A DNA stretch of 22,095 bases, taken from a virus. The stretch spans positions 1 through 22,095 of IMG/VR virus record IMGVR_UViG_3300047481_000154; one strand, given 5' to 3'. The translations under genes were made by a program, and so were the position numbers. Position 1 is the first letter of the stretch, and each line of letters begins with the position of its first letter. Shown here in pieces: positions 6,437 to 15,286 of this stretch. The notes under the pieces are model-generated. The model ran no database searches and was not told the origin of the DNA. It worked only from the letters and a program-made list of their open reading frames with translations.

Positions 6437-7375
6437 TTAGACGATTTGTTTTCCACGGAAGAACCCTTTCTCCCCGTGTACTGAACAGAATTCTGGATGT
6501 ATGAGTTCGCCATCTACGATCGTCAACACAGCAAAGCCAGAACAGTGGTTGGTTGGGTTGTCCTCCCCGTAGTGCATGTGATCGCCATCTGTCTCGGCTA
6601 ACGTGCCGCAGTCGATACCCCAGCGGGTTCCTCGATAGTCAGACAGAATCGTTGCCTGCAGCCGGTGTAGGTGACCTGTGCACATAGACACCCCACCGTG
6701 CAGCGTGTTGTTCCACGTAGCGTGGGTCCCATTCCTAAACCGGTGCTTGATCATCAGGTTCTTGTTGATGAACAAGCTGATAGTGAAGTTCCAACCGTGG
6801 AAGTGATCCCTTAAGCTAAATCCGCTAACTCCAGAGAACTCTGGAACCGAGTTAGCAAGCTTTGCTTCGAACCGCATGTCGTGGTTACCCAACGTCCACC
6901 AAGTCTTTGCGTTACCAGAGACTTCCTTGATCTCGTGTAGCCGCTCAGTAACAGCCTCTAGCTCTTGCTTGACTGTTGGCATTGCGCCCCAATCCATTCT
7001 TGGGTGGCGGCTGATGCTGGCTCCATCGAGTAAGTCGCCGTTCATCACAACGATCTCAGGCTTCAAATCCTTGACTACTTTGACTAATGCCTGATGAGCG
7101 GTACTGATAACCCCGGGCCAGTAATGCGCGTCTGATCCGACAACAATCACTCCGTTCTGCATTGAGCAGTCAACACGGGGTGAGTGTTCTCGAATCACAT
7201 ATGTTGGGGAACGCGGGTCTGTGGAGCCTAGATTAACGCCTAACTTGGTTTCAAGTTCTCTTCGACGACGATGTACGTTTCTTTCGGCAACGCCCAAATA
7301 CTTTGCAACAGCCGCAGCGGATTGAAGTTGATTCCAAGTCTCTATGAATTTCTCTTCACTTATTCGTTGTGACAT
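6437..7375 (-). CDS. HTH-containing calcineurin-like metallophosphoesterase
   Basis: A 312-residue protein. ATG 7375 is preferred to the upstream TTG at 7414, which would add 13 residues that only re-read the preceding gene. Residues about 10-45 look like a helix-turn-helix (AAAVAKYLGVAERNVHRRRR). The rest carries the metallophosphoesterase signature in order: D82-x-H84 (GSDAHYW), GDLLD (113-117), GNHD (163-166), H211 and GHLH (234-237). These residues bind two metals in the calcineurin/Mre11/SbcD fold. The substrate cannot be read: a nuclease, a phosphomonoesterase or a nucleotide phosphatase are all possible. It overlaps the preceding gene by 20 nt and is followed at 10 nt by the nozzle gene. 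The HTH suggests DNA contact. Confidence 0.9.
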   Translation of the reverse strand: MSQRISEEKFIETWNQLQSAAAVAKYLGVAERNVHRRRRELETKLGVNLGSTDPRSPTYVIREHSPRVDCSMQNGVIVVGSDAHYWPGVISTAHQALVKVVKDLKPEIVVMNGDLLDGASISRHPRMDWGAMPTVKQELEAVTERLHEIKEVSGNAKTWWTLGNHDMRFEAKLANSVPEFSGVSGFSLRDHFHGWNFTISLFINKNLMIKHRFRNGTHATWNNTLHGGVSMCTGHLHRLQATILSDYRGTRWGIDCGTLAETDGDHMHYGEDNPTNHCSGFAVLTIVDGELIHPEFCSVHGEKGFFRGKQIV

Positions 7376-7715
7376 TTCTCTTTTTTGGTTGTTGCAACAC
7401 AGTAAGCGCAGCAATCATCCCTATAGGAATCACTAATGTCTGCGCGTGATTATCGGAAGATAACGTCTGGCATACCTTCACATGTGTTTTGGTTTGCTTC
7501 ATTAGCCACCCCACCGTAAAACAGTTCAACAGGGGCTCCTCCTCGGCTTGGTGATTTCCTTCTTGCCATCCAAACTGGTGCTCAGCATCTAGCCACTCCA
7601 CCAGTACTATTGCTGCCGTGTCTATCTTGGGAACGTTTGGAGCCACATCGCTACTTTTACGACCACCCCTCCGATTGTTGCTGATAGTCCGCTTATCCAC
7701 AGTAATGTCCTCCAT
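7356..7715 (-). CDS. Small conserved phage protein ('TVGWL' type)
   Basis: Up to 119 residues from ATG 7715; GTG 7700 is an alternative with GGAGG eight bases upstream. The core has IVLVEWLDAEH, then NCFTVGWLMKQTKTHVKVCQT, then LVIPIGMI. This is a pattern I recognise from short phage proteins ('V.W.D......VGWL......V.IP.G.I') of unknown function, and it shows the frame is real despite heavy overlap. The N-terminal 25-30 residues are basic and lie in a region that also encodes the C-terminus of the preceding gene in another frame (overlap up to 94 nt). It sits between the lysis genes and the metallophosphoesterase. Confidence 0.65.
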   Translation of the reverse strand: MEDITVDKRTISNNRRGGRKSSDVAPNVPKIDTAAIVLVEWLDAEHQFGWQEGNHQAEEEPLLNCFTVGWLMKQTKTHVKVCQTLSSDNHAQTLVIPIGMIAALTVLQQPKKRNVTTNK

Positions 7716-7864
7716 CCACCTTTAGCCTCGGACAGTGTTTGCTGAATGCCTGAGAGCTGCTCCATTACTTGTTTCATGTCCTCGTGCAGATGGTTTACCT
7801 GCTCTTTGAGCGCCTCGATCTGAGCGTCGTGCTTGCCAAGGTCGCGGTGAATTCCTTCGCTCAT
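7622..7864 (-). CDS. Coiled-coil protein with C-terminal membrane segment, lysis-associated
   Basis: An 80-residue protein from ATG 7864, which shares one base with the endolysin stop (TGATG); a TTG three bases upstream is less likely. Residues about 8-48 are a charged amphipathic helix (DLGKHDAQIEALKEQVNHLHEDMK), a probable coiled coil. Residues about 54-76 are a hydrophobic segment (TLLWISGLSATIGGVVVKVAMWL) long enough to cross the membrane once. This architecture matches small XhlA-like or haemolysin-like membrane proteins found in phage lysis cassettes. AAAGG lies upstream of the start. Its role may be to assist holin or to anchor a lysis complex; this is inference from position and topology. 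Confidence 0.8.
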   Translation of the reverse strand: MSEGIHRDLGKHDAQIEALKEQVNHLHEDMKQVMEQLSGIQQTLSEAKGGWRTLLWISGLSATIGGVVVKVAMWLQTFPR

Positions 7865-8283
7865 CAAACTACCTTTCCGCCAGCCTGAAGCTCAGCTAAT
7901 GTCAGGCCACCCGTGTACTGGAAGTGCGCCATCTCTTTGAACTTTTTCCACTCGCCAGCCCACTCGAGGCCAGCCTCCTTACCCAGTCCGCCCAGCTTTT
8001 CCCACACTGGATCTTTTGTATTCCAATTTGCTTTTCCACTTACTAACGGCACCACATCGATTGCACATCGGTGGTTGTGCCACGACTGACCGGGTTTGGC
8101 GTTTGTAACAATCGTGCCCGGAGCGGTGCGGCCTTGAGCATAAAGTGCTGCTTGGCTTTCCGCATCTCTAAAAGTTGAAGTGATAAGCAAGTCAATCCCG
8201 TGCTCTTCACATAAATCCTGAAACTTTTCTACCTTTGCTCTGACTACGGGAAGAAGCTCTTTGATGTCTCTCGAGTTGATCAT
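7864..8283 (-). CDS. Endolysin, M15 family peptidase (VanY/L-alanyl-D-glutamate type)
   Basis: A 139-residue single-domain enzyme with no signal peptide, so it depends on the holin for access to the wall. Zinc ligands of family M15 are visible: H69 and D76 in SWHNHRCAID, and E117 with H120 in EMAHFQ. TSTFRDAESQAALYAQGRT (residues 35-53) matches the family's upstream 'S.R....Q..LY..GRT' pattern. The usual Gly in SxHxxGxAxD is Arg72 here. The predicted activity is cleavage of peptide cross-links in peptidoglycan (D,D-carboxypeptidase or L-Ala-D-Glu endopeptidase). The start overlaps the Rz stop as ATGA. Length is close to single-domain M15 phage lysins. Confidence 0.93.
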   Translation of the reverse strand: MINSRDIKELLPVVRAKVEKFQDLCEEHGIDLLITSTFRDAESQAALYAQGRTAPGTIVTNAKPGQSWHNHRCAIDVVPLVSGKANWNTKDPVWEKLGGLGKEAGLEWAGEWKKFKEMAHFQYTGGLTLAELQAGGKVV

Positions 8284-8765
8284 TGCGAGTTGTACTTCTT
8301 GATTATTTCCTGAAGGGCTTCTAAACGGCGCTCGTTGTCTCGACAGGACTCGTAGTTCTCTGCGACTGTGGCGGCAACGTCTTGAGCTTTGACGGGGGCT
8401 GCATCAGCTCCGGTGGCACTGGGATCCGGCACGGTTGCGTTCGCGGCTGCGTCGTGGAACACCCGGAAACCACCAGACAAATCGCAATCACTTTCCACAT
8501 ACTTCGGTATCTCCTTGATCAGAGTCTTGTAGACCACTCGCTCCTTGACAGCCGCAGCTGCCACCTTCGCGCCTACAGCGTCCGCAACCGCTTGGTCTTT
8601 CCTCTCCTGCTTGAGCGCCGCCTCTGCAAGCGCAGCCTTCTCCGCATCCCATTTCGCCTGTATGCGATCCGCCCCTAAACTCCAAGAAAGTGCGCACACC
8701 GCAACGACAGCGAGTGATAGTGCTATCCACTTAACCAGCTTCCAGTTCATCATCAGGCTTGCCAT
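8280..8765 (-). CDS. Rz: Rz-like inner-membrane spanin (i-spanin)
   Basis: A 161-residue protein with one N-terminal membrane segment (WIALSLAVVAVCALSWSLGA, residues about 13-32), followed by a long Ala/Lys/Glu helix and KERVVYKTLIKEIPKYVESD. The segment CDLSGGFRVFHDAA and a second helix follow. This topology and the 'Y..L..EIPKYV....C.L..GF...HDAA' stretch are typical of phage Rz proteins. The i-spanin pairs with the outer-membrane lipoprotein encoded inside this gene to fuse the two membranes in the last step of lysis. The start overlaps the holin end by 35 nt; ATG codons at 8753 and 8750 are alternatives that would avoid part of that overlap. Confidence 0.88.
   Translation of the reverse strand: MASLMMNWKLVKWIALSLAVVAVCALSWSLGADRIQAKWDAEKAALAEAALKQERKDQAVADAVGAKVAAAAVKERVVYKTLIKEIPKYVESDCDLSGGFRVFHDAAANATVPDPSATGADAAPVKAQDVAATVAENYESCRDNERRLEALQEIIKKYNSQ
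8321..8500 (-). CDS. Rz1: Rz1-like outer-membrane spanin lipoprotein, fully nested in Rz
   Basis: A 59-residue frame read directly from the sequence, shifted relative to Rz and wholly inside it. It starts MWKVIAICLVVSGCSTTQ: a short hydrophobic signal with lipobox VSGC, so Cys14 should be lipidated. The mature part is Pro-rich (PCRIPVPPELMQPPSKLKT), the hallmark of Rz1 o-spanins, which also often carry 'PVPPEL'. AAGGAG lies 10 nt before ATG. TAG is at 8321-8323. Family role: it binds the C-terminus of Rz across the periplasm and drives fusion of inner and outer membranes. Presence of a Pro-rich lipoprotein in this position makes chance unlikely, and it implies a Gram-negative host. Confidence 0.92.
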   Translation of the reverse strand: MWKVIAICLVVSGCSTTQPRTQPCRIPVPPELMQPPSKLKTLPPQSQRTTSPVETTSAV

Positions 8766-9015
8766 TCTTGATCTGCTCCAGTTTTTCTTTACTCCTACCC
8801 CATGCGGTTATCCCCAAGATCGCGCCAAACGCCAGATGGATAAGCCCACCAGCTTGTAGCGTAATCGGCTGCCACTGCATCAACCCGGAATCCATGTAGT
8901 ACTGGATGATGGAGAACAGGACCGGGAAGAGGATGAAGTCGCAAACGTTGATTGCCATGTACACCCAAGCCATCGTCGGGCGCCACTTGCGGTTCATCCA
9001 GTCTTCCCGATTCAT
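8731..9015 (-). CDS. Holin (2-3 TM segments)
   Basis: A 94-residue membrane protein. Hydrophobic segments lie at about residues 15-41 (MAWVYMAINVCDFILFPVLF) and 54-72 (LQAGGLIHLAFGAILGITAW); a weaker amphipathic stretch (SIIQYYMDSGLMQW) lies between them. The C-terminus is short and charged. This resembles the small phage/GTA holin family with RPxxAW near the N-terminus. It would form the inner-membrane holes that release the endolysin. AGGAG sits four bases before ATG and the gene lies directly ahead of Rz, Rz1 and endolysin, which supports the assignment. Confidence 0.85.
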   Translation of the reverse strand: MNREDWMNRKWRPTMAWVYMAINVCDFILFPVLFSIIQYYMDSGLMQWQPITLQAGGLIHLAFGAILGITAWGRSKEKLEQIKNGKPDDELEAG

Positions 9016-9029
9016 TTAACTCCTGCCCG

Positions 9030-9764
9030 TTATCCAAACATCTTTCTTATCTCACCAAAGCTTTTTACGAACTTGGATGAGTCATAAAGCGAAAACACCC
9101 TCAGATCTTTGTCGTCGGGCGTTGCGTCTCTGCATATCATGCCGTGCTGCTCTTTAGGGACTAGCACATACTGAGCAATCGGAGTCCCAGCTTTAATGAG
9201 CGTTTCTCCATCCAGAACATGCCAGAGGAGCTGCACGTTCATGTAAGCCGGGCCCGCCTCTTTGCTGAAGTATCCCGGGATGGTTGTGAACCGCCTCTCC
9301 TCACTAAGAGGGATTGGCATCTCGAGTAGGTAGTATCCTTTTGGCACAACACAGCGCCACCCGGAATTGATTTTTACCACCGTGCGTAACGTGTCATCCG
9401 GCCATTCCTCCCAGAAATTGGCGAGTTGTTCAGGCGGGTGAAAGCCAACACCATCTTGGGAGTACGCGCCGAGCCAAGAAAAATTTGCTGGGTCCTCTTT
9501 CTTGGTGGTGATCACTATGTCTTGCCATGTCCTCATAATCCAACCATGCCTCTGCAGCGTAAAGATGCCGGGGCACCGAGCGGTGTGAATCACCTTCTTG
9601 TGGTTCCAGTTGGGATCTTCTCTTAGTTTTGCAAAGTCCCTTACGGCGCGATCTACCCAAGGGTGCCTAAAATCCTTTGCGGGGATCATTGGCATCATTT
9701 GCGCGACGCCCGGGGTCTCATTGAGAAACTCAATTGTTGGTTTGCTGCGCCGGAACCAATTCAC
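9030..9764 (-). CDS. DUF6065-like conserved phage protein
   Basis: A 244-residue soluble protein starting at GTG 9764, which overlaps the desaturase stop as GTGA with GAGGAG upstream. Sequence features include CPGIFTLQRHGWIMRTWQDI, then SGWRCVVPKGYYLLEMPIP, then IPGYF, and finally LIKAGTPIAQYVLVPKEQ. The 'W.I..P.GY..L...P', 'GTP.AQ' layout recalls DUF6065-type phage proteins, probably a beta-barrel fold. This family assignment is from memory and not verified. No metal-binding triad is evident. Function is unknown. It is the last gene of the cassette containing the two oxygenases and the desaturase and is followed at 14 nt by the holin. Confidence 0.75.
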   Translation of the reverse strand: MNWFRRSKPTIEFLNETPGVAQMMPMIPAKDFRHPWVDRAVRDFAKLREDPNWNHKKVIHTARCPGIFTLQRHGWIMRTWQDIVITTKKEDPANFSWLGAYSQDGVGFHPPEQLANFWEEWPDDTLRTVVKINSGWRCVVPKGYYLLEMPIPLSEERRFTTIPGYFSKEAGPAYMNVQLLWHVLDGETLIKAGTPIAQYVLVPKEQHGMICRDATPDDKDLRVFSLYDSSKFVKSFGEIRKMFG

Positions 9765-10489
9765 ACACTCTCCTCAATAAACGGAATTAAGTAGTAGCTC
9801 AAGCACCACCCCCCATTACGCCAGTCATTTGGTCTGTCGTGATGTGGCTTGTGTATCCACTCGCCCCAAGGGAAGAGCGGAATGAGCCAATAAGCGTTTC
9901 TAGGTCTATCGCCAACGTGGGTAAAGATCTGGCTACACGCAATCGCCAGAAAGAAGTACCCGACAGGCGCTAGGTACCCAAACAGCAACAGCAGCGGATC
10001 AATCACCCAGAGAACTACGGCAAGGCCCCCACAAAGCAACAGGCCATAGTTGTGCAGAAACTTGTGCACTGGATCCGCAAGCATCCTCTTCACAATCATT
10101 GCTGGCGGCATAGAAACCTTGCGATACCACTTAACCAAGAAAAACCAGAGGCTACGGACATGGGGGTCTTGCTGGGTGTCCGACGTGCGGTGATGCACGA
10201 AGTGCAGGTGTGACCAAGCAATCGGACTCCCTTGAAACGCTAGTGTCCCTGCAATAGCAAAGGCAATCTCCCAGAAGCGCGTCGTCTTGAACGACTGATG
10301 GGTAAACAGTTGGTGATACCCCAAGGCCACCGAAATGTTGAATACTGAGTACACGGCAAAAGACAGGAGCAACCACCAAGGGCTCACAACTTCTGCGGCA
10401 AGGTACAAGGCGACCAACAAGGAAGGTAGAGCGATCCAGTTCACCACGGTTTGCCACCCGGGAGTAACGGCGAAAATCTTTTTATGCAC
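9761..10489 (-). CDS. Membrane fatty-acid (acyl) desaturase
   Basis: A 242-residue integral membrane enzyme with the three histidine boxes of the acyl-CoA/acyl-lipid desaturase family: HQLFTH (59-64), HFVHH (96-100) and HKPHH (213-217), plus H110 in QDPHV. Membrane segments lie near residues 14-33, 38-56, 74-91 and 148-188. These boxes bind a di-iron centre that uses O2 to insert a cis double bond in a fatty acyl chain; electrons must come from host ferredoxin or cytochrome partners. No electron-transfer domain is fused. Length is at the short end but all boxes are intact, so it looks functional. It starts at GTG 10489, 8 nt inside the upstream oxygenase. Likely an auxiliary metabolic gene acting on host membrane lipids late in infection. 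Confidence 0.93.
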   Translation of the reverse strand: MHKKIFAVTPGWQTVVNWIALPSLLVALYLAAEVVSPWWLLLSFAVYSVFNISVALGYHQLFTHQSFKTTRFWEIAFAIAGTLAFQGSPIAWSHLHFVHHRTSDTQQDPHVRSLWFFLVKWYRKVSMPPAMIVKRMLADPVHKFLHNYGLLLCGGLAVVLWVIDPLLLLFGYLAPVGYFFLAIACSQIFTHVGDRPRNAYWLIPLFPWGEWIHKPHHDRPNDWRNGGWCLSYYLIPFIEESV

Positions 10490-11033
10490 CTACCATCCCC
10501 TGTTCCAGCGCTGCCTTGATAGATTCGTATGGCGTACTGCTAAATGAGAAAGTGAGTATCTTTCTCCCCTGATTTGGCACTAGGGTCACCGAATGTGGCA
10601 CGGATGTATCCATCAGCCAACAGTCCCCACGCTCCGCAACATACCTCTCCACCTCAACAAGAGATTTATCGCCAGCATTCCAGTTGTAGTAGTGCGTTGA
10701 TTCTCCGTTTGCGTCAATGTATAGATTGATTCCGCATATCTTGTTCAGATCGACGTGCACCGGAAGAACTGGATTCGCTGCATCGCACGGGTTCATGACC
10801 AGCATGAATATATGCGGCACCTCAAGATCAAGGACGCTTTTTGGCAACAGAGAAATGCAGTACTGCTTTATGCTTTCAGGCACCAAATATGTATCGCCAC
10901 GCACAGGAGTGAGCTTGTCATCCATCTCTCTGTTGTACTTCTGTGGTTTGGTGTACGACCGATGAAACGTTATCTCCGCCTCACTTAGCATGGATAGATC
11001 AAAAGCAATGGGTAAGCGAGCACAATACTTCAT
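10482..11033 (-). CDS. 2-oxoglutarate/Fe(II)-dependent oxygenase-like protein, copy 2
   Basis: A 183-residue protein with the iron triad of 2OG oxygenases: H93-x-D95 (VHVDLN), distal H147 (VPHSV) and R157, exactly ten residues on, which would bind the 2OG carboxylate. Beta strands before and after (CGINLYIDANG, GDCWLMD, KILTFSF) fit the double-stranded beta-helix. It is clearly paralogous to the next gene upstream: shared 'PQKY', 'LD.EVP', 'HVD', 'GE.T.YY', 'G.CW..D...PHSV' and a C-terminal 'TP' helix. ATG overlaps the stop of its paralogue (ATGA). Expected reaction: hydroxylation or related oxidation; the substrate cannot be inferred from sequence. Confidence 0.85.
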   Translation of the reverse strand: MKYCARLPIAFDLSMLSEAEITFHRSYTKPQKYNREMDDKLTPVRGDTYLVPESIKQYCISLLPKSVLDLEVPHIFMLVMNPCDAANPVLPVHVDLNKICGINLYIDANGESTHYYNWNAGDKSLVEVERYVAERGDCWLMDTSVPHSVTLVPNQGRKILTFSFSSTPYESIKAALEQGMVGA

Positions 11034-11578
11034 GCCGCCTCTAGATATTCCATTACTTTCTCGAATGGTGTGCGAATGAATGAGATGCTTATTGCTCTAC
11101 GAATATGTGGAGGCGAGAGAAGAACAGAGTGTGGCTTTTCCGAGTCGAGCGCCCAACATTCCCCATGCCGCGCAACAAAACTTCCGATCTCCTTTATCTT
11201 GCCTCCGGTGTACTCATAGTAGGTAGTCTTCTCTCCATGGGGGTTTACATACACGTTGATGCAGCACTTCCTGACTTTATCCACATGCGGAGCCAGCATT
11301 GTCGGTTCCTGCGTATCAGCTGGCTTGATGTTTAACACCCAAACCTCCGGCACCTCAATATCAAGCAGCTCTGTAGGCATGTGCTTTAAGATCTGCTGCT
11401 TGTCATCTGCTTGGATCTCGTAGGTCGCGTTTGGGACAGACACAAAGCTGAATATCTTTGAGAGCGCTAGCCCGTATTTCTGCGGCGTAGAGTATTCCGC
11501 ATGCATGTACAGATTGCGCGCGTCAGTATCTATGCCTTCAATATCTAATGATAGATTCAGCTTTTGGTATGGCAACAT
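11030..11578 (-). CDS. 2-oxoglutarate/Fe(II)-dependent oxygenase-like protein, copy 1
   Basis: I start at ATG 11578 (MLPYQKLNLSLDIEG), two bases past the previous stop, giving 182 residues that line up end to end with the 183-residue paralogue. An upstream GTG at 11608 would lie inside the previous gene and has no binding site. The iron ligands are H98-x-D100 (PHVDK) and H150 (KPHSV), with R160 ten residues later for 2OG. Other matching parts are LLDIEVPEVWVLNIKP, CINVYVNPHGEKTTYYEY and GECWALD. All catalytic residues are kept in both copies, so neither looks decayed. The pair probably arose by tandem duplication and has diverged considerably. Confidence 0.86.
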   Translation of the reverse strand: MLPYQKLNLSLDIEGIDTDARNLYMHAEYSTPQKYGLALSKIFSFVSVPNATYEIQADDKQQILKHMPTELLDIEVPEVWVLNIKPADTQEPTMLAPHVDKVRKCCINVYVNPHGEKTTYYEYTGGKIKEIGSFVARHGECWALDSEKPHSVLLSPPHIRRAISISFIRTPFEKVMEYLEAA

Positions 11579-11580
11579 AA

Positions 11581-12126
11581 TTAAATCTTGAAGATGTATC
11601 CTTGGCACCTGCCAATCGCAGTGACAGTCTGTTTGTCAGACGCAATTCTGATTTGCCGCATGCTAGGAATTTCCTTCCCAGCTAAACTTAATGTCCCTCG
11701 CAACAGATATAGTTTTGTGCCATGCGGCAGATCGCATGACGATCCATCAGCTAGATCAAAGAACTCTAGAGGAGGAATCACTGGAGAGCGGTCCTTATTT
11801 ACGGCCGGTGAAAAGCAGACATGTTCGCTGTCTTCAAGCACATCGAACTTGTAGGCTCCTGCCGCTGGCTTGTGTACAAGAGTGCACCAACCGGGGCCGT
11901 GACGGTCAACTTCTCCCGTAGCGACATTGGTGTACGTATGAGAGCCGCTTATGAGAAACCATATGTACGCACCCCTCGACCCATTTATGCTTCCGCTCTC
12001 ATCTGTCTCAGCTTTATCTATAAAGAGCATATTGCTCACTAAGGCATCGTCTGTAACTATTTCGCCTGCTTTTAGCTGGGCGCGTAGCAGCACGTATCCA
12101 AAAGCTGGGTAAGGCTTGAGGATCAT
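11581..12126 (-). CDS. Cupin-like protein of unknown function
   Basis: A 181-residue soluble protein. The order of short strands and turns (AYIWFLISGSHTYTNVATGE, GWCTLVHKPAAGAYKFDVLE, LYLLRGTLSLAGKEI) suggests one or two small cupin-like beta barrels; the last segment resembles the 'G.L...G' turn of cupins. A clear metal-binding His cluster is not visible, so I do not call it an enzyme. GAGGTG lies 5 nt before ATG and the stop is two bases before the first oxygenase gene, so it probably belongs to the same transcription unit. It could be a small-molecule or carbohydrate-binding protein, or a distant relative of the oxygenase fold. Confidence 0.7.
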   Translation of the reverse strand: MILKPYPAFGYVLLRAQLKAGEIVTDDALVSNMLFIDKAETDESGSINGSRGAYIWFLISGSHTYTNVATGEVDRHGPGWCTLVHKPAAGAYKFDVLEDSEHVCFSPAVNKDRSPVIPPLEFFDLADGSSCDLPHGTKLYLLRGTLSLAGKEIPSMRQIRIASDKQTVTAIGRCQGYIFKI

Positions 12127-12128
12127 GT

Positions 12129-12428
12129 CTACACCTCAATTACAGTGGATTCGTCATTTGCCCTTTGTTCTTCTGCATCATGGGCAGCCCTGATAATCCA
12201 GTATGAATCAAGAACGGCTTGGAAGTCGTTGAGGTTTGTTATCTCCTCATTAGTTACCATCTTCCCAGTGCTAGGGTCCTGCACTTCCACCTCGCCATGT
12301 GTGCCGTACCACTGAACCGCATGCACCTCTGGCCCTACAGACGTCATGTCAACGCCGTTAAAACCGACCCCATCCACAGAGCAGAATTGATCTGATGGAA
12401 TTATTGTTGCTCTCATTGGTGCTGTCAT
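12129..12428 (-). CDS. Small fibre-associated conserved protein (possible tail-fibre chaperone)
   Basis: A 99-residue protein beginning MTAPMRATIIPSDQFCSVDG, with VHAVQWYGTHGEVEVQDP in the middle and a helical, Glu/Ala-rich end (AAHDAEEQRANDES). Proteins with 'VQWYG..GE.E' are common next to phage tail fibre genes and resemble small fibre-assembly factors; function is inferred from that position. Start codon overlaps the stop of the preceding gene as TAATG with AGATTAGG upstream. No catalytic residues seen. Confidence 0.7.
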   Translation of the reverse strand: MTAPMRATIIPSDQFCSVDGVGFNGVDMTSVGPEVHAVQWYGTHGEVEVQDPSTGKMVTNEEITNLNDFQAVLDSYWIIRAAHDAEEQRANDESTVIEV

Positions 12429-12718
12429 TACCTAATCTCCAATAACGAGGTCTTCGCCACCGCAAGGAGTGCTTGCTGTGAGCTTTCGTTTGCCTTCACC
12501 ATTTCATTTCTAAAGGATTCAACAGCGGCTCCTGTTGATCTCTGCTGCTGACTGTTCTCGATAAGAAGCACGGGTAGCCATGCAATTGCGCATGCCCACT
12601 CATCCACTTCTTTCCCGGTATTGGGGTTTGTGCCGCGCACCTGAGTAAACCAAGAGCATTGCAGCCCGATACAGTCTTTCTTGATGAGGGGGCAGTAGGT
12701 TCCGCTCTTAAGTTCCAT
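12428..12718 (-). CDS. Small four-cysteine phage protein
   Basis: A 96-residue protein with Cys at 9, 16, 21 and 43 (CPLIKKDCIGLQCSWFTQVRG, then WACAIAWLP). The CxxxxxxCxxxxC plus distal Cys arrangement could bind a metal ion or an iron-sulphur cluster, or be structural. The C-terminal half is helical (SQQQRSTGAAVESFRNEMVK). AAGGACTAATTT precedes ATG. I have the impression of seeing close relatives next to tail fibre genes of other environmental phages, but I cannot verify this. It lies directly after the tail-collar fibre gene (4 nt). No function assigned. Confidence 0.75.
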   Translation of the reverse strand: MELKSGTYCPLIKKDCIGLQCSWFTQVRGTNPNTGKEVDEWACAIAWLPVLLIENSQQQRSTGAAVESFRNEMVKANESSQQALLAVAKTSLLEIR

Positions 12719-12721
12719 AAA

Positions 12722-13684
12722 TTAGTCCTTCGTGGCAATAATCACATCAACGTACTGAACAGAGAGATCGATAGATGATCCGGAGAATGTGTGGTTGTGC
12801 GATCCGCCGCCGCCAGAATCTAGCGTGGTGGTATTTGTGTTGTTAATTGTGGTTCCGGATGTACTACCCGAGGTCGGAGTGTTCCCGCCCGTGGTTTTGC
12901 CCGATGTTCGGAATCTCATTGTGTGCGAGTGCGCTGGGATTTGGGTAGTAGCCAGCGTCGTGGCTCCGACCGTACCGCCAACGCCCTGCGAGGTAAACGC
13001 AGAGGTAAACGCAACCGAACCACCAGAGCTTACTGAGCCACTCACCACACGCAGAGCCTTGTTGTCGTGCGTCGTGACCTTAGTCCATCCAGTAGGAGCC
13101 GATGTCTGCTGGAACAGCATGGCAGTACCCGCAGGTATAGGCGAGGCGGCAATAGCAGCTGCTACGAATGCAGTGCTGGCAATCTGCGTGTTGTTCGTCC
13201 CAGCTGAAGCGGTAGGCGTTGTCGGCGTACCAGTCAAGTTGGGGCTGCTAACCGACGGAGTGGTAATCGTCGGAGACGTCAGCGTCTTGTTGGTAAGCGT
13301 CTGAGTCGCAGCGGGGGTCACGATCGCAACGCCACCAACCGTAGTGCCAGCCGGGAGATCCGTGATGTTCATGCCCGTACCGAGATCTGCCAGCGCTCCG
13401 GCAGTTGGCCTCAGTTCAAGCTTATCGCCGCCGATGTAGGCTTTTGCTGTAGTGCCGTCCTGACCTCGAACTACCGTCAGCGTGTCCGTTGCCCTGTTGG
13501 TTACCTTGACGATCTCGATGTTGTTACTCGAGTCAACAAGGGTGGCGTAGAAGAAGTTTCCACTCGCCGTCGTCACAGCAGGAAACAAGGCGCCAGTACC
13601 AACAGCCAGCGGTATCGACGTAGCTGATGACGTGATCGACGACGCTAAAGTCGTAGTGGCGTTGTTGGTGAACTTGATTGGCAT
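12722..13684 (-). CDS. Tail fibre protein with tail-collar domain
   Basis: A 320-residue protein. Residues about 1-105 form an N-terminal beta domain, perhaps for attachment, with VTNRATDTLTVVRGQDGTTA. Residues about 125-165 are Thr/Ser/Pro-rich with 'TLTNKTLTSPTI', a motif frequent in phage fibre shafts. Residues about 180-320 match the phage tail-collar pattern: IPAGTAMLFQQTSAPTGWTK, AHSHTM, GGGGSHNHTF and a final VQYVDVIIATKD. The HxH pairs recall the metal-binding histidines in T4 gp12-type receptor-binding tips. It probably forms a trimeric fibre or spike contacting the host surface. AGGGA precedes ATG. Two small accessory genes follow. Confidence 0.85.
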   Translation of the reverse strand: MPIKFTNNATTTLASSITSSATSIPLAVGTGALFPAVTTASGNFFYATLVDSSNNIEIVKVTNRATDTLTVVRGQDGTTAKAYIGGDKLELRPTAGALADLGTGMNITDLPAGTTVGGVAIVTPAATQTLTNKTLTSPTITTPSVSSPNLTGTPTTPTASAGTNNTQIASTAFVAAAIAASPIPAGTAMLFQQTSAPTGWTKVTTHDNKALRVVSGSVSSGGSVAFTSAFTSQGVGGTVGATTLATTQIPAHSHTMRFRTSGKTTGGNTPTSGSTSGTTINNTNTTTLDSGGGGSHNHTFSGSSIDLSVQYVDVIIATKD

Positions 13685-14161: not shown

Positions 14162-15286
14162 TCACGGTCCATTCAGAACGAAGAAGTTCAGAACGTATGT
14201 GTTTAGTAGCTGCGGATTCGACGCCGCTATTGCGATCGAGATGCTCTCGGTCACCGTCACAGAGTCCCCAGTAATTGCTTTGTCCAGCAGGAAGCTTTCG
14301 TCGTCCGCAGTGCTGGCGGCATCAGAAAGCAGTTTTTCCACTTGTGATGCGATTGCATCAACTGCACCTTGCGTATCAGCAAGATCTTTACTCCATTGAA
14401 ACACTGCACTTAAAGAATCCAATGGGCTTGCACTATCAGTCAGCGCTTTACCAAAGCTTCGATTAGCGACGTCGGAGACTGTTGCTGTATCAGAAAGCAG
14501 TTTCCCAACTTGCGATGCGATTGCATCAGTTGGCGTTGCCGCATCAGAAAGCAGTTTTCCGACCTGTGATGCGATTGCATCAGCCACTGCCTGCGAGTCA
14601 GTAAATGTCCGATCCCACTGCAGCTGGCGGTTAAACAGGTCAGATGTAGTAGCGCTGTCGTCAAGCGCCTTGTCAAAGCTGTACGCGACGACATCAGCCA
14701 CTGCCGCGCTGTCCGCCGCAAGCCTTGCAAAGCTGAATGCAAATGCGTCGTTTGACACCGCCGTGTCTGCCAACGTCCTGCCAAAGTTAAAGCTGGGCGC
14801 GTCTTGCGCTTGAAAGGAATCAACAAGCGACTTGGAGACATTTAAGGTTGACGCGTCACTTCCTGTTGCGGTGTCCGCAATAGACTTACCTACGCTCAGT
14901 ACCCTAGCGTCATTAGCTGCAGCCACATCAACAAGCGCCTTGCTTAGATCGAACTCGCTTACGTCTACAGTCGATACGGTGTCCGCCAGATTCCGAACAA
15001 TGATGAGAAGGATCGTCACCGCCTCTGCAGTGGTGACAGAATCTCCCAGCTCCTTCGCCAATGCAATGGTCGGTTCGTCAGAGGCAAGCGCGGAGTCCAG
15101 CAGCGCCTTTGCAAACGCAATCACCTTCTGGTCAATAACCGCAACAGTGTCTTTGATGTACGGATACTTACCCGTCTCATCGAGCTGCGCTGCAGACTGG
15201 ATTAGGATGTAGTCAATGGCAGATGCTGCCAACTGGTACACCACATCAGATCCCGCGAGAGTCGCAGCTACACTGAGCCGGATCAT
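14162..15286 (-). CDS. Repeat-rich tail fibre shaft-like protein
   Basis: A 374-residue protein. Residues 1-59 form a small N-terminal domain. Residues 60-355 are sixteen copies of a unit of 18 (sometimes 20) residues, '[KR]xLxD[ST]AxxxDAxxxxxx', for example KLLSDAATPTDAIASQVG. The last 19 residues (SNPQLLNTYVLNFFVLNGP) are a short hydrophobic cap. Such regular Asp/Ala/Ser repeats suggest an elongated shaft, either helical-bundle or solenoid. ATG 15286 has no binding site of its own: GAGGA stands ahead of a six-codon frame just upstream which ends in TGA overlapping this ATG. It precedes the other fibre genes. I infer a fibre shaft or spacer; a receptor-binding role is not shown. Confidence 0.75.
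   Translation of the reverse strand: MIRLSVAATLAGSDVVYQLAASAIDYILIQSAAQLDETGKYPYIKDTVAVIDQKVIAFAKALLDSALASDEPTIALAKELGDSVTTAEAVTILLIIVRNLADTVSTVDVSEFDLSKALVDVAAANDARVLSVGKSIADTATGSDASTLNVSKSLVDSFQAQDAPSFNFGRTLADTAVSNDAFAFSFARLAADSAAVADVVAYSFDKALDDSATTSDLFNRQLQWDRTFTDSQAVADAIASQVGKLLSDAATPTDAIASQVGKLLSDTATVSDVANRSFGKALTDSASPLDSLSAVFQWSKDLADTQGAVDAIASQVEKLLSDAASTADDESFLLDKAITGDSVTVTESISIAIAASNPQLLNTYVLNFFVLNGP
14222..15109 (-). repeat. Sixteen tandem 18-residue repeats in the fibre-shaft gene
   Basis: Units begin with Lys or Arg and have a fixed Asp at position 5 and usually another near 11. Units 2, 9, 13 and 16 are 20 residues long; the others are 18. At the DNA level three segments of about 40 bp are nearly identical: 14489-14529 and 14543-14583 (4 mismatches in 41, 54 bp apart, all silent) and 14321-14360. 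This shows that some units were copied recently while others have drifted. Confidence 0.92.

Follow-up and report, generated by a model that had tools for sequence, protein, structure and literature searches.

Organization of the locus

The window, which is the whole stretch of viral DNA that was analyzed (22,095 nucleotides; IMG/VR record IMGVR_UViG_3300047481_000154), contains five intact, tightly packed open reading frames on the minus strand, in the order cupin-like, oxyA, oxyB, desaturase and DUF6065-like. This cassette is flanked on one side by the g99, g96 and tail fibre genes (12129-13684) and on the other side by a holin gene (8731..9015, minus strand; GTA_holin_3TM-like, PF11351 in Pfam at 3.9e-7 and phrog_3427 at 2.1e-7), beyond which an M15 endolysin is encoded (7864-8283). 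Gaps of 2 nt separate g99 from the cupin-like gene and the cupin-like gene from the ATG start of oxyA. The next three joins are overlaps of 4 nt (oxyA/oxyB), 8 nt (oxyB/desaturase) and 4 nt (desaturase/DUF6065-like), and 14 nt lie between the DUF6065-like gene and the holin gene. The description in an earlier note of five packed genes between fibre accessory genes and a holin was thus borne out in its coordinates and joins. The reading frames are not chance ones, since the desaturase scores above the PF00487 cut-off, the DUF6065-like protein matches phrog_7084 with an E-value of 1e-36, and homologues are found in the same order elsewhere. The same note placed the cassette as one unit in the late region. 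Indeed, it forms a dense unit that adjoins late structural and lysis genes; promoter- and terminator-like matches at the locus were no more frequent than in shuffled sequences.

Predicted products of the cassette

The desaturase gene (9761..10489, minus strand) encodes a membrane fatty-acid desaturase (PF00487, 1.3e-7; 32.1 bits against a cut-off of 29.7). Its HX4H, HX2HH and HX2HH boxes and the ninth histidine, H191, were present in 22/22 viral relatives, and hydrophobic segments could be identified. The family consists of integral membrane enzymes that act on lipids. The equivalog cut-off of NF052548 (Delta(5) desaturase DesA, NCBIfam) was not reached (26 vs 500 bits), and the sole match among phage records was to Pelagibacter phage Mosig, with 26.6% identity.

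The genes oxyA (11030..11608, minus strand; probable start, judged from relatives, the ATG at 11578) and oxyB (10482..11033, minus strand) encode paralogues with 32% identity. For oxyA no Pfam match was found, and oxyB scored 14.6 bits against PF05118 (Asp_Arg_Hydrox, AspH/LpxO family), below the cut-off of 22.6. The two window oxygenases matched nothing in 50,697 phage records, and sequence-profile searches of the PDB with the oxygenase, DUF6065 and cupin-like families returned nothing useful. The structure model of OxyA is a double-stranded beta-helix (pLDDT 93.5) with VIA Z scores of 11.3 to proline 3-hydroxylase and 10.7 to AspH and PHD2. The protein hydroxylases AspH, PHD2 and P4H, as well as PiuC, were among the fold matches, and the fold is tied (Z 10-11) between free-amino-acid, protein and nucleoside hydroxylases. 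The iron ligands (H108-x-D110...H160 in OxyA) were conserved across homologues, with each histidine in 91/91 and the aspartate in 81/91, the other 10 carrying histidine at this position; the basic residue about 10 positions after the distal histidine (R170) was kept in 89/91. Based on motif, conservation and structure model, OxyA and OxyB are predicted to be divergent 2OG-Fe(II)-type oxygenases, OxyB being assigned the same fold by homology. The claim that three of the genes encode iron enzymes that use O2, with complete catalytic residues, therefore held, and as these residues are conserved across homologues, those of the cassette enzymes are judged to be under constraint.

The DUF6065-like gene (9030..9764, minus strand) encodes a phrog_7084/DUF6065-related protein. 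Its model has a pLDDT of only 58; the best Foldseek matches listed were dUTPases (best E-value 4e-5), and the VIA Z score was 10.7. The catalytic aspartate motif of dUTPases, which we take to be of the GxIDxxYxG type, is degenerate in the window protein (GYFSKEAG); in the alignment the S-CREM1 relative has GILDPRYG. Profile match, alignment and model together point to a protein of predicted dUTPase (beta-clip) fold, and because of the degenerate motif a functional dUTPase is not favoured. The label DUF6065-like was justified in part: the window protein matched 0 Pfam families, and 1 of its 15 relatives, a distant one, matched DUF6065 (PF19541) at 1e-5. Among bacterial genomes the family was matched once, and weakly (L195), so that no host was assigned.

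The cupin-like gene (11581..12126, minus strand) encodes a protein of putative cupin fold; profile searches with 10 members gave no cupin match, so that the name has no backing from any family search. Its position is constant. The gene after it encodes a 2OG oxygenase or a desaturase in 45/45 contigs, and it directly follows a fibre module, of one of three types, in 39/39 genes for which upstream sequence is available.

Association of the oxygenases with a tail-fibre tip

The tail fibre (12722..13684, minus strand; 320 aa; phrog_8469, 1e-25) carries two HxH motifs in its C-terminal tip (aa ~178-320), and the histidines of these motifs are 98-99% conserved among 107 unique tips of the family. 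Directly after the tip lies g96 (12428..12718, minus strand), a small protein with cysteines C9, C16, C21 and C43 conserved in the alignment. In contigs collected by g96, an HxH tip was found upstream of it in 76/77 cases. The next small gene, g99 (12129..12428, minus strand), has no family match of its own; the P-SSM2 gene at its position matches PF16778 (Phage_tail_APC), and by this analogy g99 is likely a fibre-assembly chaperone.

The g96-anchored contigs were not selected for oxygenases. Of the 59 contigs that extend 3 kb or more downstream, 35 have a 2OG gene within 5 kb, corresponding to 15/31 sequence clusters. The density of 2OG genes beside the tip was ∼16-fold higher than in the rest of the same contigs (0.163 vs 0.010 per kb; 45 vs 2 genes, p 9e-9, one contig per cluster). 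The HxH-tip fibre is thus followed by g96 and often by a chaperone-like g99. About half of the phages then have at least one 2OG-Fe(II) oxygenase, no 2OG gene being detected in the other half. Sometimes a desaturase, cupin-like or dUTPase-fold protein is also present; fibres commonly have oxygenases next to them but no desaturase, and the composition of the slot varies strongly among relatives.

The full five-gene set recurred only in the near-identical contig L002, and since capsid-clade relatives differ in gene composition, a fixed five-gene system was ruled out. The desaturase and dUTPase-fold genes are optional; the steadier link is that of the oxygenases with the fibre-tip module, and not with the holin, near which the earlier note had proposed to search. 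The pairing of desaturase and oxygenases that it emphasized was not seen across viruses in general: in a desaturase-anchored sample 2OG genes were not enriched nearby (32 near vs 33 far, p 0.62), which rules out the desaturase as the defining partner, and only 8/79 viral desaturases were near a fibre gene.

Comparison of phage backbones points in the same direction. The main head proteins of contig L116, a close relative, are 94-98% shared with the window, whereas the fibres agree over the first 101 aa only. None of the genes from g96 to DUF6065 is present in L116, which instead encodes an S74-domain fibre, a protein rich in Gly and a 2OG protein of 374 aa. Conversely, what L020-22 and L033/36 have in common with the window is limited to the fibre tip, g96 and g99 together with the cupin-like, oxygenase and desaturase genes, apart from a 46% identical g147 in L033/36. 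Tip and enzymes have thus been exchanged together between phage backbones. Between the window and L003 the fibres are 81% identical, and the cupin-like, oxygenase and desaturase proteins only 28-31%. In T4-like phages from freshwater, a desaturase-oxygenase-AspH-like set was also found at a distance from fibres. Freshwater phages also contained a radical SAM, 2OG and small protein layout, which could be read as RiPP-like from the layout alone. The recurrence of iron enzymes beside one fibre-tip type in many unrelated phages suggests that host recognition is paired with chemistry altering the surface or the fibre.

Possible role of the cassette

We tentatively favour the reading, with somewhat less than even confidence, that the cassette serves late tailoring of the host envelope or receptor and that its enzymes are a variable cargo carried by a tail-fibre module that is itself mobile. 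The enzymes would be made late, together with the fibre; the soluble oxygenases would hydroxylate, and the membrane desaturase desaturate, envelope components of the infected cell, with the host providing 2-oxoglutarate, Fe(II), O2 and the electron donor of the desaturase. The targets may be part of, or near, the receptor seen by the co-inherited tip, e.g., LPS acyl chains or surface structures, and as a result fewer progeny would re-adsorb to the dying host or to debris from it, and competitors would be shut out. That the enzymes are fibre cargo is argued by the constant cupin-like position, the 2OG density in the g96 sample, the swap in L116, its converse in L020-22 and L033/36 and the residue constraint. 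A broader version, in which aquatic phages in general carry a mobile module of HxH tip and interchangeable Fe/O2 enzymes matched to the receptor and editing it, is considered unlikely.

The main rival is that the oxygenases hydroxylate the fibre, tip or g96/g99 for folding, metal binding or receptor binding, the desaturase acting separately. This is rather unlikely, although the constant place beside three kinds of fibre genes and the protein hydroxylases and PiuC among the fold matches are consistent with it, as are the P-SSM2 gene order (fibre-g96-chaperone-PiuC) and the grouping, in S-CREM1, of a collagen-like gene, a Trp halogenase and a DUF6065 relative with a run of annotated 2OG genes. 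The HxH motifs of the tip, moreover, resemble iron-binding motifs of T4 gp37 (PMC11705849). However, enzymes that diverge to 28-31% where the fibres of the window and L003 remain similar argue that the target is a varying one in the host and not the fibre, as does the occurrence of the set away from fibres, and the integral membrane desaturase, left without a task by fibre hydroxylation, implies a lipid substrate. The HxH-tip phages without a detected 2OG gene count against both fibre hydroxylation and envelope tailoring. The latter is further weakened by the tied oxygenase fold, by the desaturases that are neither 2OG-enriched nor usually fibre-adjoining, by the dUTPase-fold protein, which has no place in a lipid model, and by the short time in which lipids could change if the genes are expressed late.

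Two further explanations are improbable, to a similar degree. Desaturase and hydroxylases could shift host lipid fluidity in infection or before lysis (cold or stress adaptation, holin timing), as the proximity of the desaturase to holin or endolysin genes in the window and L121, its place a few genes ahead of a phrog_181 endolysin in L081 and the increase in membrane fluidity proposed for Arctic phage desaturases (PMC7300359) would suggest; against this, oxygenases often lie beside fibres without any desaturase, and known lysis families are rare beside desaturases in the desaturase-anchored sample, for which few lysis families were scored. Alternatively, the slot could be a permissive late site for ordinary auxiliary cargo, in which small molecules or 2-oxoglutarate/nitrogen signalling would be the target of 2OG enzymes that are functionally independent of the fibre. 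This would fit its variable composition and the 2OG/NtcA proposal for cyanophages (PMC3037559), but not the concentration of 2OG genes at the slot or the travel of the enzymes with the tip between backbones.

Comparison with known systems

With the dUTPase superfamily and DUF6065 (PF19541) the cassette shares a modelled fold and a profile match in one distant family member; unlike a dUTPase, the window protein has a degenerate motif and the window offers no nucleotide-metabolism context. A phage-encoded lipid or fatty-acid desaturase was reportedly described in cyanophage by Roitman et al. (ISME J, 2018). The desaturase vFAD is known in Arctic phages (PMC7300359). Like these membrane enzymes the window desaturase has His boxes, but it is one gene in a cassette of oxidases linked to a fibre. 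Like the T4 gp37-type metal-binding fibres (PMC11705849), the window-type tip has conserved pairs of HxH motifs; the likeness is one of motif only, and the Trojan (Ferrojan) Horse hypothesis, as set out in that paper, does not include an enzyme cassette.

The closest parallel is found in the 2OG-Fe(II) arrays of cyanophages. Such genes number 24 in S-SCSM1 and 10 in S-CREM1 (PMC9602691, PMC9964418; Sullivan 2010, PMC3037559). As in the window, several divergent 2OG genes occur, in S-SCSM1 and P-SSM2 they adjoin fibre and g96, and in S-CREM1 the DUF6065 relative and the Trp halogenase are grouped with them. The window differs in that its oxygenases match no phage record and in its desaturase and cupin-like protein. 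The arrays are not related to the fibre in the available parts of PMC9602691, PMC9964418 and PMC3037559; neither a description of a link between fibre tip and 2OG oxygenases nor a paper tying 2OG genes to fibre hydroxylation was found in the literature. Both the 2OG arrays of cyanophages and the desaturases of phages are already known. 2OG oxygenases are common, unexplained auxiliary genes of cyanophages, with up to 24 per genome (PMC9602691), and the published proposals, as far as their accessible text goes, centre on host metabolism; the link to the HxH-tip module leads instead to a concrete idea that can be tested, namely that the receptor is edited or the fibre hydroxylated, with the envelope of the host and the fibre of the virion as candidate targets.

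Gene layout of the window

The window is a linear virus record of 22 kb whose minus strand carries all main genes, and its capsid protein has its best match among phage records in Rhizobium phage RHph_TM3_14A (50% identity). The five genes claimed by the earlier note (9030-12126), coding for a cupin-like protein, the divergent 2-oxoglutarate (2OG)-Fe(II)-type oxygenases OxyA and OxyB, a desaturase and a 'DUF6065-like' protein, were found at these positions, and their tight packing was confirmed, with joins of 2-nt gaps or 4-8-nt overlaps. They are preceded by the tail fibre gene and two small genes, g96 and g99 (the latter likely encoding a chaperone), and followed by the holin and an M15 endolysin. 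A metallo-phosphoesterase-like gene (6437-7414; phrog_221) within the late region has 68-71% identity in relatives, and a 374-aa protein built of a repeated short degenerate unit (14162-15286) is highly variable among close relatives (26-56% identity). Near late or structural genes of RHph_TM3_14A (L112:20437-20919) and Roseobacter phage CRP-235 (L114:23422-23844), acyltransferase genes are annotated as N-acyltransferase and 'putative toxin-activating lysine-acyltransferase'.

2OG oxygenase genes are linked to the HxH fibre tip

An independent sample of loci was fetched by g96, so as not to select on the oxygenase. Genes were labeled with purpose-built profile HMMs, and for several of the families Pfam, PHROGs or NCBIfam served as a check on representatives. 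A C-terminal fibre tip with two HxH motifs was located upstream of g96 in 76/77, and both motifs were conserved at 98-99% across 107 tips. A 2OG gene was present within 5 kb in 35 of the 59 loci having at least 3 kb downstream, and in 15/31 after collapsing to sequence clusters. The density of 2OG genes was 0.163 per kb near g96 compared with 0.010 elsewhere on the same contigs, the underlying counts, with one contig per cluster, being 45 and 2 (p 9e-9). When g99 was detected, 27/36 loci had a 2OG gene, compared with 8/23 without g99 (p 0.003, uncorrected for relatedness). The firm result of this analysis is that 2OG oxygenases are linked to the HxH fibre-tip module.

Neighbourhoods were also surveyed in 95 loci, fetched mostly by oxygenase or DUF6065 queries. 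A fibre module was found within 2.5 kb of all 39 cupin-like genes having upstream sequence, and an oxygenase or desaturase gene came next after 45/45 cupin-like genes, a figure that is partly built in because of these queries. The upstream module was of three kinds: HxH fibre with g96 and g99, another fibre with a Tfa-like gene, or a gp38-type adhesin (PF05268) with a small gene. Phage relatives of the same type keep the cupin-like gene, oxyA, oxyB, the DUF6065-related gene, one further gene and the holin, without the desaturase. Freshwater phages whose replication genes are T4-like also carry a set of desaturase, oxygenase and AspH-like genes, there next to a radical SAM gene and not to fibres. 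In such contigs (L075-L100, e.g. L082:4398-9600) the run consists of the radical SAM gene (phrog_1802), genes for an unknown protein of ~300 aa and a small protein, a 2OG gene, oxygenase gene(s), sometimes a desaturase gene, and lastly the AspH-like gene.

Fibre and enzyme genes are exchanged between phage backbones

In its main head proteins the related contig L116 is 94-98% identical to the window (capsid 96%); of the fibre, only the first 101 aa are common to both, and in L116 the entire stretch from g96 to the DUF6065-like gene is absent, replaced by an S74-domain fibre, a Gly-rich protein, a Tfa-like gene and a 374-aa 2OG protein. Contigs L020-22 have in common with the window only the C-terminal fibre tip, g96, g99, and the cupin-like, oxygenase and desaturase genes, and L033/36 share the same set plus the gene g147 (46% identical). 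In L003 the fibre is 81% and the DUF6065-related gene 88% identical to that of the window, with only 28-31% for the cupin-like, oxygenase and desaturase genes. By these sequence comparisons, fibre tip and enzymes can move as one module, and turnover of enzyme alleles is faster than that of the fibre.

Properties of the encoded proteins

OxyA is a paralogue of OxyB (32% identity), and the family to which both belong was not recognized above threshold by Pfam, PHROGs or NCBIfam. The confident structure model of OxyA (pLDDT 93.5) had similar scores (Z 10-11) against proline 3-hydroxylase, AspH, PHD2, prolyl hydroxylases and a nucleoside hydroxylase, which supports the superfamily and not a particular substrate. 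The complete catalytic residues proposed earlier were indeed present in the oxygenases and the desaturase. Among 91 unique oxygenase homologues the iron-binding His residues were kept in 91/91 and 91/91, the iron-ligand Asp in 81 and the 2OG-type Arg in 89. In the remaining ten, about one tenth of the family (10/91), His replaces the Asp (e.g. L003:5248-5826, L004:5975-6559 and L005:4230-4814), and this HxH...H pattern is a possible three-His site.

The desaturase exceeds the Pfam FA_desaturase cut-off, and its nine His are invariant in 22 viral desaturases. For viral desaturases in general, a tie to 2OG oxygenases was not supported: in a desaturase-anchored sample (n=79), a 2OG gene lay within 3 kb in 20 and a fibre gene in 8, with no enrichment relative to the rest of the contigs (p 0.62). 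Viral desaturases are common, mostly in settings other than fibre/2OG neighbourhoods, tandem runs among them; several genes in tandem, in some cases at least four consecutive, were seen in L285-L287, L304, L310 and L320.

The 'DUF6065-like' protein is a member of phrog_7084, and dUTPases were the top matches among those listed for its model (pLDDT only 58). It is a dUTPase-fold protein but probably not a working dUTPase: where the catalytic Asp would be expected, the window has the segment GYFSKEAG, compared with GILDPRYG in the S-CREM1 relative. For the cupin-like protein no match to a cupin profile was found.

Possible function and comparison with known systems

Tailoring of the envelope or receptor late in infection is tentatively favoured as the function, for three reasons: variation in the enzyme alleles does not follow that in the fibre, a desaturase in the membrane requires a lipid to act on, and the enzyme set can exist apart from fibres. 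The main rival, hydroxylation of the fibre, is favoured by the position of the enzyme genes, the folds resembling protein hydroxylases and a collagen-like neighbour in S-CREM1, and is considered less probable.

2OG arrays in cyanophages and desaturases in phages are already known; no description of the link between fibre tip and 2OG genes was found in the searchable open literature, which leaves most subscription journals outside its coverage. In the cultured phages P-SSM2 and S-SCSM1, genes annotated as 'ferrochelatase' (L277:9877-10470 and L275:10728-12089) both match 2OG-FeII_Oxy_3, so that this annotation looks wrong. The layout of P-SSM2 is similar to that of the window, with fibre, g96, chaperone and a PiuC-type 2OG gene, and in the similar layout of S-SCSM1, 2OG genes flank the short tail fibre and g96 on both sides.
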